A stretch of DNA of 46,358 nucleotides, taken from NCBI GenBank assembly GCA_938084175.1, contig CALKDR010000028.1:1-46358 (forward strand), read 5' to 3'. This document shows, piece by piece, positions 10,193-13,193 of the stretch. A program made the position numbers and the translations under genes. The notes beneath the pieces are model-generated. The model was given only the letters and a program-made list of their open reading frames with translations, was not told the DNA's origin and did no database searches. Source of the DNA: an uncultured Campylobacterales bacterium. GTDB lineage: Bacteria > Campylobacterota > Campylobacteria > Campylobacterales > Arcobacteraceae. Position 1 is the first letter of the stretch. Every line of letters starts with the position of its first letter.

Positions 10193-10216
10193 AAGTATTT
10201 TATTATGTATACTTTT
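10191..10216 (+). terminator. Possible terminator after gspD
   Basis: AAAAGTAT (10191-10198) can pair with ATACTTTT (10209-10216), an 8-bp AT-rich stem directly after the gspD stop. It ends in four T but is weak, so it is only a candidate. It would also serve the converging HNH relic. Confidence 0.4.
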
Positions 10217-10727
10217 AGTTAGATACAAACTTTATTAGAGTATCGTTTAATTGTAAAGAAGCAATTGAGTTCTTAGGATTTGTAGAATTTAAAACCTTAT
10301 TACAATCTGAACATAAAATAATTATATTCTCAAAGTTATAACCTCCACCTTGTGAAATATCTTTAGCAAAAGTTGTAAATACATCTCTAGTTTTAAAGTA
10401 GTTCGACATCTATTACATTTACTCTTATCTCTTTGCCAAGCTAGATCTCTTCTTTCTTTCCAATCACTAGGTGTCTTATGATTTGTATATGATTTCTCTT
10501 CATAACTTGTCCAAAGCTTTTCTCTTTGAATACCTTTTTGTGTCTTTTTTTCATATTCATAATAGAAAAATTGATTTATTATATTCTCAACAATCAAAGT
10601 TTCTCTAATTCCGATATCTTTTTCATTTTTTTATTTTTTCAATTATAGAATAATCAAAATGAATTCTTGGATGTTCATTGTCTAAATAAAGCTTTAACTC
10701 TTTAACAAAAAACTCTAAAGGTCCTTT
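10215..10727 (-). pseudogene. HNH endonuclease gene, broken by frameshifts
   Basis: Read on the minus strand, three segments in different frames join into one HNH-type protein. The first (10727 to about 10625) reads GPLEFFVKELKLYLDNEHPR and stops just after an A-run. The second continues KDIGIRETLIVENIINQFFY and reaches DLAWQRDKSKCNRC, the first zinc/HNH cysteine pair. The third (to 10215) reads TRDVFTTFAKDISQGGGYNF and has the second pair in IILCSDCNKVLNS. Two frameshifts are therefore needed, near 10630 and 10400. No proper start or Shine-Dalgarno is visible. The native role is unknown; a restriction-like or homing nuclease is possible. Confidence 0.72.
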
Positions 10728-10734
10728 TTAAAAC

Positions 10735-11826
10735 CTAAATTATTTCAGGATTAACTTGATGTTTAACTAGTGTTTTATTTACAGAAGTATGTTCACCTGC
10801 TACTAGTTTTTGCAATTCATTTAAATGAATTACAGGTAATATCACATCTCTTCCCGAACACTTTTCTAATGCTTTTCTATTATAATCAAAAATATAAAAA
10901 TCATCATCATTATCAACTAATAAGAAATCTGCATTATTGTCAAAAGCATCCAACATTATAGTTGTAGCAACGCAATATGTTATATCTTGGTTCTTACTGA
11001 AGGTACTTTTTGCTAAATCTAGTTTTAAACTATCAAGATTTAAGAATTTTGCATCTAGTTTATTTAATAAAGATTCGGTCTTATCAGAACTTTTTGATGC
11101 ATAATATGCAATATTAAAATCTTTAAAATCATGTTTGATATCATTTGTATCTTCAAATTTTTCAAAGTCAATAATTAAAGTATTATTTACTCTAAAGTTT
11201 TGTTTTTCTTGTGAAATTAAATTTAATTTCTTTTGAATATCTATAATTTTTTCTTCAACGCTCTTATCAAAATTTAAAATTCTATTTTCTAAACTTGTAT
11301 GAAAAGATGCTCCTGCTTCATGATTATTCAAGGCTTCTAATATTTTACTTTCATTTGATTTATTTGCTGCTATTAAATCACTTGCTAAGATTAAAACAGC
11401 ATCACCTATGTAATCACTTTTGTGATTTAATGTATCAGATGCATAATAATAGTGTTTTAATTCTATATAAGCTTTTTTATCTTCTTCTTTTATAAAGTCA
11501 TTTAACACATTTAGTTTTTCATTGAAGTCATTATCATTAATTATTAAGTCATTTCCTGCTCTTCTTACTGAGATTGGATCTATTGTTAATTCTTTTCCAA
11601 ACTTCTCAACTAATTGAGTTATCGTAACAGATGCTTTTAAATATAAACCATTTACAACAAGATCAAAATTTCCATCATTTTCATATCCGAATGGATTTTC
11701 ATTATTAATAGTATTTAAAATATCTAATAGCGTTTTTTCTGATTTTATTTTTAAAAAATGTTTAGTGTAAAATGGTAAATAATCAGATTTTTTGTCAAAT
11801 TTAAATAAAGAGATTTCTAGTTTCAT
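10735..11826 (-). CDS. Cysteine-free FrdB/SdhB-like plus HdrB/SdhE-like protein (DUF5644-type)
   Basis: 363 residues. Residues 1-115 follow the beta-grasp ferredoxin domain of fumarate reductase FrdB: EISLFKFD and SDYLPFY, then KTLLDILNTI, VVNG, LTIDPIS and the NDLIINDNDF block. Residues 125-200 match the helical domain of FrdB (DYIGDAVLILASDLI, EALNNHEAGASF). Yet there is no cysteine at all in residues 1-284, so every Fe-S ligand is missing. Residues 235-345 resemble a CCG/HdrB module and end ILPVIHLNELQKLVAGE; only Cys285 and Cys323 remain. I think this is the Campylobacterota family listed as DUF5644, but the label is from memory. The frame is intact with a good ribosome site (AAGGTGA). 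Function unknown; a structural or assembly role in a reductase is inferred. Confidence 0.72.
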   Translation of the reverse strand: MKLEISLFKFDKKSDYLPFYTKHFLKIKSEKTLLDILNTINNENPFGYENDGNFDLVVNGLYLKASVTITQLVEKFGKELTIDPISVRRAGNDLIINDNDFNEKLNVLNDFIKEEDKKAYIELKHYYYASDTLNHKSDYIGDAVLILASDLIAANKSNESKILEALNNHEAGASFHTSLENRILNFDKSVEEKIIDIQKKLNLISQEKQNFRVNNTLIIDFEKFEDTNDIKHDFKDFNIAYYASKSSDKTESLLNKLDAKFLNLDSLKLDLAKSTFSKNQDITYCVATTIMLDAFDNNADFLLVDNDDDFYIFDYNRKALEKCSGRDVILPVIHLNELQKLVAGEHTSVNKTLVKHQVNPEII

Positions 11827-11927
11827 TTTAATTGTTCACCTTTTGTATAATTGTTTTGATTTTATTTAATTTATACTTAAAAAAATGATAAGTTATGTGT
11901 TTTTAACCCATCATTACAAAAGGTGTG

Positions 11928-13193
11928 CTATTCCGTAAACCTTTTTACATCTGCACCAATTTTTGTAAGTTTTCCTTCAAGGTCTTCATAACCTCTATCA
12001 AGATGATAAATTCTATGAATACTTGTTTCACCTTTTGCTACTAATGCTGCTAAAACTAAAGCAGAAGATGCTCTTAAATCAGTAGCCATTACATCAGTAC
12101 CGTTTAATGTTCCACTTTTTCCGTTTATTGTAGCAGTGTTACCATTAAGTTGAATATCAGCACCGAGTCTTAATAATTCACTAACATGCATGAATCTATT
12201 TTCAAATAATCTTTCATCAATAGTTGAAGTTCCATTTGCTTGAGTTGCTAATGCCATAAACTGTGCTTGCATATCAGTAGGGAATCCTGGATATTCTGTT
12301 GTAATAATATTTACAGGTTTAATCTCATTTGTAGGAAAAATAGTTAAACTTGTTTTTTCTACTAATATTTCAAAATTCATTTCTTCAAGTTTTGAAGTAA
12401 CCGCTTCTAAATGTAATGGAATAATATTATTGATTTTAATTTTTTCATTTCTTATAGCTGCTGCACACATATATGTACCAGCTTCAATTCTATCTGGAAT
12501 TACATCAAAATCTTTAATTTCAAGAAGCTCTTTATTAGTACCTGTTATTTTTAGTGTAGATGTCCCAATACCTTCTATTTTAACACCTGCACTTGCAATT
12601 ACTTCACAAAGTTGAACAATCTCAGGTTCTTTTGCAGCATTAATAATTGTAGTCTCACCAGAAGCTAAAGCAGCTGCCATAACAATATTTTCAGTTCCAC
12701 CAACTGTAACTTTATCAAATACAATTTTTGCACCTTTTAAACCATCAGGAGCAGTTGCTTCAATATATCCATGATTGATAACAATTTTTGCACCCATTGC
12801 TTCTAAAGCTTTTAAGTGTAAATCAACCGGTCTTTGACCAATTGCACAACCACCTGGAAGTGAAACTTCACAATGTCCAAATCTTGCAAGAATAGGTCCT
12901 AATACTAAAATAGAAGCTCTCATAGTTTTTACAATATCATATGTTGCAGTTGTATTATTTACAGCGGCTGTTGATATATTTGCAGTATGACCATCTTTTG
13001 AAAAAGTACCACCTAGTTTTCCAATAAGCTTTAAAAAAGTATTGATATCAACAACATCAGGTAAATTACCCATTTTAATTTCATTCTTTGCTAGAATTGT
13101 ACATGCTATTAAAGGCAAAGCAGCATTTTTAGCACCTGATATGCTAACTTCTCCAGAAAGTTTATTTTCACCAAGAATTTTTAAATATTCCAT
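11928..13193 (-). CDS. murA: UDP-N-acetylglucosamine 1-carboxyvinyltransferase MurA
   Basis: 421 residues, full length. It catalyses the first committed step of peptidoglycan synthesis, adding enolpyruvate from PEP to UDP-GlcNAc. The N-terminus has [16 protein letters not shown], and the active loop reads [15 protein letters not shown] with catalytic Cys116, the residue that fosfomycin alkylates in this family. The C-terminal part has [14 protein letters not shown]. An AGGAAT ribosome site precedes the ATG. It is transcribed away from the DMT transporter gene. Confidence 0.97.

Follow-up and report, generated by a model that had tools for sequence, protein, structure and literature searches.

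A conserved SdhB/SdhE-like protein lacking the cluster-ligating cysteines, encoded beside murA in Arcobacteraceae

The locus and its predicted protein

The DNA analysed here (the window) is a stretch of 46,358 nucleotides from an uncultured Campylobacterales bacterium of the family Arcobacteraceae. It carries a gene for a protein of 363 amino acids which, judged by its sequence, consists of a pseudo-B part (pB, about residues 1–205) related to the iron-sulfur subunit SdhB of complex II and of the second half of a pseudo-E part (pE, about residues 223–363) related to the CCG subunit SdhE. The following features were assigned.

10735..11826, minus strand: gene for the 363-amino-acid cluster-free SdhB/SdhE-like protein, pB plus the C-terminal half of pE (open reading frame)
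11515..11826, minus strand: SdhB N-terminal domain without the [2Fe-2S] cysteines, residues 1–104 (sub-threshold Fer2_3 match, profile match to FrdB 1kf6_B, hhalign to SdhB, alignment)
11212..11514, minus strand: DUF5644, equivalent of the helical domain of SdhB but lacking the 4Fe-4S cysteines, residues 105–205 (sub-threshold Pfam DUF5644 match at 109–201, hhalign, ligand-column counts)
10738..11160, minus strand: equivalent of the second CCG half of SdhE/HdrB with its ligand cysteines lost, residues 223–363 (sub-threshold HdrB-like_C match at 276–356, hhalign to SdhE 132–290, ligand-column counts)
11837..11843, minus strand: Shine-Dalgarno-like AAAGGTG, some 10 nt ahead of the ATG (read from the sequence)
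11928..13193, minus strand: murA, immediately upstream on the same strand (NCBIfam TIGR01072, 569 bits; gene contexts)

The gene, called pBE in the following, is transcribed in the direction of murA and follows it at a distance of 101 bp. An earlier note on this DNA had described its frame, start and ribosome site as intact; ATG, stop, strand and coordinates proved right, and the Shine-Dalgarno-like element stands upstream. The FrdB-like motifs that had been read from it (SDYLPFY, KTLLDILNTI, LTIDPIS, NDLIINDNDF and others) were all found in the protein, and in the alignment DYLP(F/Y)Y and IxPxSxxRAxxDLxIxxxDF are retained within residues 1–104. The 29 best relatives after the window protein itself share 46–80% identity over the full length. 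The next gene in the window, an HNH-nuclease-like gene at 10215–10727 on the minus strand, is broken, with matching pieces in different frames of which the longest spans 102 codons from stop to stop. In most murA-linked relatives, this HNH gene of about 205 amino acids is intact and stands beside pBE.

Relation to SdhB and SdhE, loss of cysteines and selection

As a single sequence, the window protein stayed below the Pfam cut-offs for Fer2_3 (16.2 bits, E 0.011; cut-off 27), DUF5644 (22.5 bits, E 1e-4; cut-off 25) and HdrB-like_C (30.8 bits, E 3e-7; cut-off 33.4), and curated SdhB/FrdB families gave 11–14 bits against cut-offs of 88–344. Among the 20 members of alignment A1, Fer2_3 and HdrB-like_C were matched by all and DUF5644 by 19 (E up to 1). 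By profile, the family of DUF5644 and the PDB entry 3KWL covers the whole window protein, though the single copy lies just under both Pfam cut-offs.

Comparisons of profile with profile (hhalign) aligned pB with real E-type SdhB at 99.9% probability (E 4e-34) over 204 columns and both domains, and full-length split pE with real SdhE at 99.8% (E 3e-28) over 278 columns, that is, the whole length. The C part of the fused form matched SdhE columns 132–290 at 98.3% (E 1.4e-14, 140 columns). In the PDB, the pB profile matched FrdB (1kf6_B, 8e-6) and 3KWL (2e-44), and the pE profile matched HdrB (8rvu, 5e-22) and the second part of 3KWL (9e-19). Split pE also matched the NCBIfam family MFR_anch_SdhE at 2e-7. 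The window protein resembles FrdB and HdrB more than chance would allow, and these matches of both parts support the FrdB/SdhB and HdrB/SdhE ancestry that the earlier note had claimed.

The first cysteine of the window protein is C285, and residues 1–284 are cysteine-free as had been noted. The CCG part was said to keep two cysteines, and two are present (C285 and C323, the only ones in the protein), but neither stands at a ligand position. In counts that are partly circular, as rows were labelled real or pseudo by cysteine number (at least 10 Cys or a CIQCG motif being real), the 12 ligand columns of SdhB hold 4 Cys in 1140 cells over 95 pB rows, a few genomes being included twice, and all 12 are present in 26 of 26 real SdhB. 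In 94 of the 95 pB rows, three of these columns are deleted; two belong to the [2Fe-2S] loop and one to the first 4Fe-4S motif. For the 10 ligand columns of SdhE, counted with five duplicate loci and the loci below L031 excluded, 6 Cys were found in 380 cells over 38 full-length pE, and all 10 in 32 of 32 real SdhE; the five ligand columns retained in the CCG half hold 7 Cys in 300 cells over 60 fused C-halves. The circularity is countered because cysteine numbers are two-peaked (0–8 versus 12–14), no row labelled SdhB lies in the pseudo clade, and the DUF5644-part profile, though built from many of these rows, separates one set from the other. Cysteine loss is thus a trait of the pB/pE family as a whole.

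No Cys or His is invariant in the 43-row alignment of fused forms or in the 29-row pB alignment. All 20 rows of A1 share H356, and the 12 rows of split pE share, nearly without exception, H269 and C74, a cysteine at a non-ligand position; C74 belongs to the half of pE that is missing from the window form. Two residues ahead of a lost CCG ligand position, split pE (L098, L103, L110 and others) has a nearly invariant single cysteine.

In a tree of 102 rows, a long branch (SH-aLRT 100) sets off all 75 pB. For this tree, loci were taken from the named set and from L001, L033, L036, L037, L046 and L048, and hits shorter than 150 amino acids or without a B part were excluded. A single row with a pB label fell inside SdhB, namely L112_pB_157; it is a real SdhB at a contig edge and was removed from later pB counts. 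Homologues carrying the cysteines, which the earlier note had considered as evidence against its reading, occur only in a separate paralogous clade, namely real SdhB/SdhE.

The dN/dS ratio was 0.06–0.18 in ten pairwise comparisons (0.18 for the window gene and its counterpart in genome G002) and 0.02–0.07 for five murA controls. The pBE gene is clearly constrained by purifying selection, as the earlier note had supposed in speaking of selection and not decay, and evolves faster than murA. In 32 murA-linked copies, the protein is 354–372 amino acids long. A decayed pB copy with internal stops, the sole such copy among the matches listed, was seen in a genome of the Campylobacter-like genus g43 (G311:C1:1391006-1391581).

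Distribution, gene neighbourhoods and complex II in the hosts

With the DUF5644-part profile, pB was found in 161 of 249 sampled Campylobacteria genomes and in 32 of 56 genera of this class. Among fetched genes, this profile gave at least 53.8 bits for pB and at most 25.5 for real SdhB, many of those pB having built the profile; 24 weak matches (E 4e-6 to 1e-3) were treated as real SdhB and scored as pB-absent, and G301 (1e-7) was scored as present. By family, pB was present in f20 (15/15), f13 (59/74), f10 (73/92), f1 (6/14), f6 (3/14), f16 (1/18), f18 (1/6), f14 (2/2) and f5 (1/1), with none in f15 (0/7), f4 (0/4), f7 (0/1) and f9 (0/1). A scan of named genomes gave at least 80 loci; among those listed, an intact pB occurs in 71, as a fusion in 50 and as a separate gene in 21. 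Seven others contain real SdhB and no pB, mostly together with SdhE, and two contain nothing but fragments. The genus names in the titles of these loci are Campylobacterota genera; L119 is titled Proteobacteria, yet branches inside the family.

Form and neighbourhood differ between lineages, where the identities of ThiL, TruD and PepF and the genus equivalences of lettered groups are readings from sequence and gene order. Arcobacteraceae of the window's kind carry the fused form beside murA (31 of the 71 intact-pB loci among those listed). Sulfurospirillum (six of the seven so named) and vent Campylobacteraceae have a split pB followed by pE, and these pairs mostly adjoin genes read as truD and thiL, in many cases together with a desulfoferrodoxin gene. 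In the Campylobacter-like g43, the split or fused genes adjoin the thiL/truD-like genes as well. Helicobacter has two adjacent split genes in seven named loci, and three Helicobacter-like (H. pylori-like) genomes have a fusion of 495–529 amino acids, in both cases mostly beside a PepF-like gene. In several other Arcobacteraceae, Sulfurimonas and Sulfurovum, pB stands beside sdhABE. A gene of the desulfoferrodoxin/superoxide-reductase type (6817–7203 in L090; cluster c13 elsewhere) repeatedly follows sdhABE or the pB–pE pair.

An sdhA-like gene lies in the fetched stretch at 27 of 106 pB loci, one of which (L032, five genes away) may be another flavoprotein, and none was found there at the other 79. 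pB is the immediate neighbour of sdhA in 20 of the 27 loci, 15 times upstream on the same strand and five times divergent, a count that includes four genomes twice (L042/L085, L043/L093, L044/L090, L092/L179) and becomes 16 of 23 when these are counted once. In one locus (L037), pB and sdhA overlap by 4 bp. Neighbourhoods of pB may also persist by descent, as the thiL/truD-like genes stay beside pB where sdhABE was not seen.

The genome of the window (85% complete) holds one Fer2_3 gene, in an operon read as FrdCAB, whose FrdA has the motif RSHSAAAQGG; this is the only complex II found in it. CCG domains occur there in three other frames as well (254–953 amino acids). The FrdA-type motif was found in 195 of 249 genomes, and pB is present in 151 of the 195 genomes with the motif versus 10 of the 54 without. 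This association is not independent of phylogeny, because pB presence follows families. The 44 genomes with the FrdA motif and without pB include whole genera (g10 6/6, g52 5/5, g58 5/5, and 9/9 of those with the motif in g51), so complex II does not always need pB. An FrdA- or SdhA-type motif occurs in 159 of 161 pB genomes but also in nearly all genomes and therefore says little. Families in which the FrdA motif is rare or missing are mostly without pB (f16 1/18, f15 0/7, f4 0/4) though putative real SdhB was matched there, which weakens a role specific to SdhABE. In FrdA of L191–L193 and L195 (Campylobacter-like g43 and g78), RSHSAAVQGG replaces RSHSAAAQGG. Three Arcobacteraceae genomes of g12 and g14 (G022, G020, G036) have two copies of the FrdA-type motif, which suggests two QFR-type enzymes in some members of this family.

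The histidine of the motif serves in FrdA for covalent FAD, and it is retained in the FrdA and SdhA copies that were read. The known flavoprotein chaperone family Sdh5/SdhE/SdhAF2 (PF03937) was found in 0 of 249 Campylobacteria genomes; the same search found it in 2 of 14 controls (E. coli and Caulobacter). If FAD is covalent in these Campylobacteria, flavinylation must proceed without this factor. In the W. succinogenes enzyme, the exchange of Ala86 to His is described as sufficient for covalent FAD (PMC2680327). Flavinylation as the sole function of pB was rejected by way of the covalent-FAD motif: RSHSAAAQGG is retained in FrdA of the pB-less genera g10, g51, g52 and g58, so pB cannot be required for flavinylation everywhere.

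Possible role and relation to known systems

By its sequence relationships, the window protein is a conserved and selected paralogue, predicted to be cofactor-free, of the B (iron-sulfur) and E (CCG) subunits of E-type complex II. Because all iron-binding cysteines are lost, it cannot carry electrons in the same mode, and ancestry, family-wide cysteine loss and selection together argue for a non-redox role, as the earlier note had proposed, in which it would probably serve some other protein as scaffold, maturation factor or regulator. Tentatively, we regard the protein as a binding partner of the complex II flavoprotein, possibly an assembly or holding factor. pBE would bind SdhA, or FrdA where only FrdCAB exists, and would occupy part of the docking surface for B and E, so that the flavoprotein might be matured or protected until the real, cluster-loaded subunits dock. 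The flavoprotein is the likeliest partner because B and E evolved to bind it and because pB stays beside sdhA in different arrangements. However, the cluster-bearing loops of SdhB face the flavoprotein, and these are exactly what is trimmed in pB. The 79 of 106 pB loci without sdhA in the fetched stretch also speak against this partner, with the relatives of the window by murA and Helicobacter by the PepF-like gene, and so do the many genomes that have complex II and no pB. A more specific and rather unlikely proposal is that this class, lacking Sdh5/SdhAF2, might use a cluster-free B/E mimic as a place-holder chaperone that would sit at the iron-sulfur subunits' docking site on FrdA/SdhA and later be exchanged for them. 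A Tat proofreading chaperone for periplasmic MfrA was also considered and dropped, as the one pB-linked SdhA that was read (L094) starts at the FAD-binding domain and has no Tat leader.

The same loci can be read differently. The SdhB/SdhE scaffold might have been recruited for a role unrelated to complex II, the nearness to sdhA being a relic of its origin by duplication; this is possible, if somewhat doubtful. The many loci without sdhA in the fetched stretch would fit it, as would the patchy absence of pB while the FrdA motif stays, and Tim18 offers a precedent (PMC10238741), but where a lineage has sdhA at this locus, pB is close to it in every arrangement (upstream, divergent or downstream of sdhABE). 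It is unlikely that the protein instead belongs permanently to a respiratory complex, be it complex II or a supercomplex, as a structural or regulatory subunit without catalysis, and is no transient assembly factor. In favour of this, B and E parts stay together in the fused, split and long-fused forms, and 15 of 27 loci have pB directly before sdhA and co-directional with it. Against this, pB is missing from many genomes with the FrdA motif or with putative real SdhB matches, and the W. succinogenes report (PMC2680327) describes the enzyme as SdhA, SdhB and SdhE from a single operon, which would count here if that species carries pB.

That the protein binds another redox cofactor (flavin, haem or metal) and still carries electrons is very improbable. 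The fold of a redox subunit is retained, by homology, and H356 in A1 and C74 and H269 in split pE could speak for it, but such a residual cofactor was rejected because the wide alignments contain no invariant Cys or His. Next to negligible is the chance of a decaying pseudogene or an alignment artefact, to which the G311 copy with internal stops could point. The dN/dS values refute decay, internal stops occur in G311 only among the matches listed, the lengths of the 32 murA-linked copies are 354–372 amino acids, and the structure of a homologue, 3KWL, has been solved. If the partner of pBE is complex II, as we tentatively prefer, Campylobacteria, which lack the known flavoprotein chaperone, would have an assembly or holding mechanism built on copies of an enzyme's electron-transfer subunits from which the cofactors have been removed. 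If it is not, the family would show clearly that a pair of respiratory subunits in bacteria can be taken over for non-redox work. Either way, a conserved protein whose structure has been solved receives a testable identity in Campylobacter, Helicobacter, Arcobacter and Sulfurospirillum relatives.

The family itself is already represented in Pfam (DUF5644 and HdrB-like_C), and 3KWL is the solved structure of an uncharacterised member. The novelty seen in the earlier note is reduced accordingly, as a fusion of FrdB and HdrB also exists in TfrB, while ancestry and cysteine loss stand. The Campylobacter genes of the family are, from gene order, presumably Cj1459 and Cj1460; searches for Cj1459 and for Cj1460 with C. 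jejuni found no literature. In 3KWL, from H. pylori, residues 24–222 match the pB profile and residues 255–514 the pE profile; the H. pylori form (495–514 amino acids) has both pE halves, whereas the window form has the second half only. From its length and the near-identical start of L172, 3KWL is probably HP0468. Passages of a GWAS (PMC6090961) describe HP0468 as of unknown function and, on the authority of another paper, as H2-induced; a table tabulates it as a DUF5644 protein (PMC9570263), and 3KWL is entered elsewhere as of unknown function (PMC3397514). The available passages of these three sources give neither a function nor a relation to FrdB/SdhB for HP0468/3KWL. No account of the family as a cluster-free complex II paralogue was found in the literature searched, and titles and abstract openings on SdhE and non-classical SQR (best 20 of 259), H2-enhanced growth and Frd assembly or paralogues contain no description of it.

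With SdhB and SdhE of E-type complex II (SdhABE/MfrABE), both parts are homologous and loci are shared, but pB/pE lack the 12 SdhB and 10 SdhE ligand cysteines and pB forms a separate clade. TfrB, of the thiol:fumarate reductase of methanogens, likewise joins an FrdB-like and an HdrB-like part in one polypeptide; it differs in being a redox subunit that bears clusters. Its family, NF004898, was matched by one pB member over the N part (5.7e-5). In W. succinogenes, the E-type enzyme is described as consisting of SdhA, SdhB and SdhE from one operon (PMC2680327). With Sdh5/SdhE/SdhAF2, pBE would share the proposed job only, namely binding of the complex II flavoprotein before the complex is completed, and PF03937 is absent among the Pfam matches of the window protein at E up to 10. 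Finally, Tim18 is described, in a paper that also treats complex II assembly factors, as an SDHD paralogue in mitochondrial import (PMC10238741); it is a paralogue of a complex II subunit that acts outside complex II, as pBE might, although it derives from another subunit and belongs to another organism.
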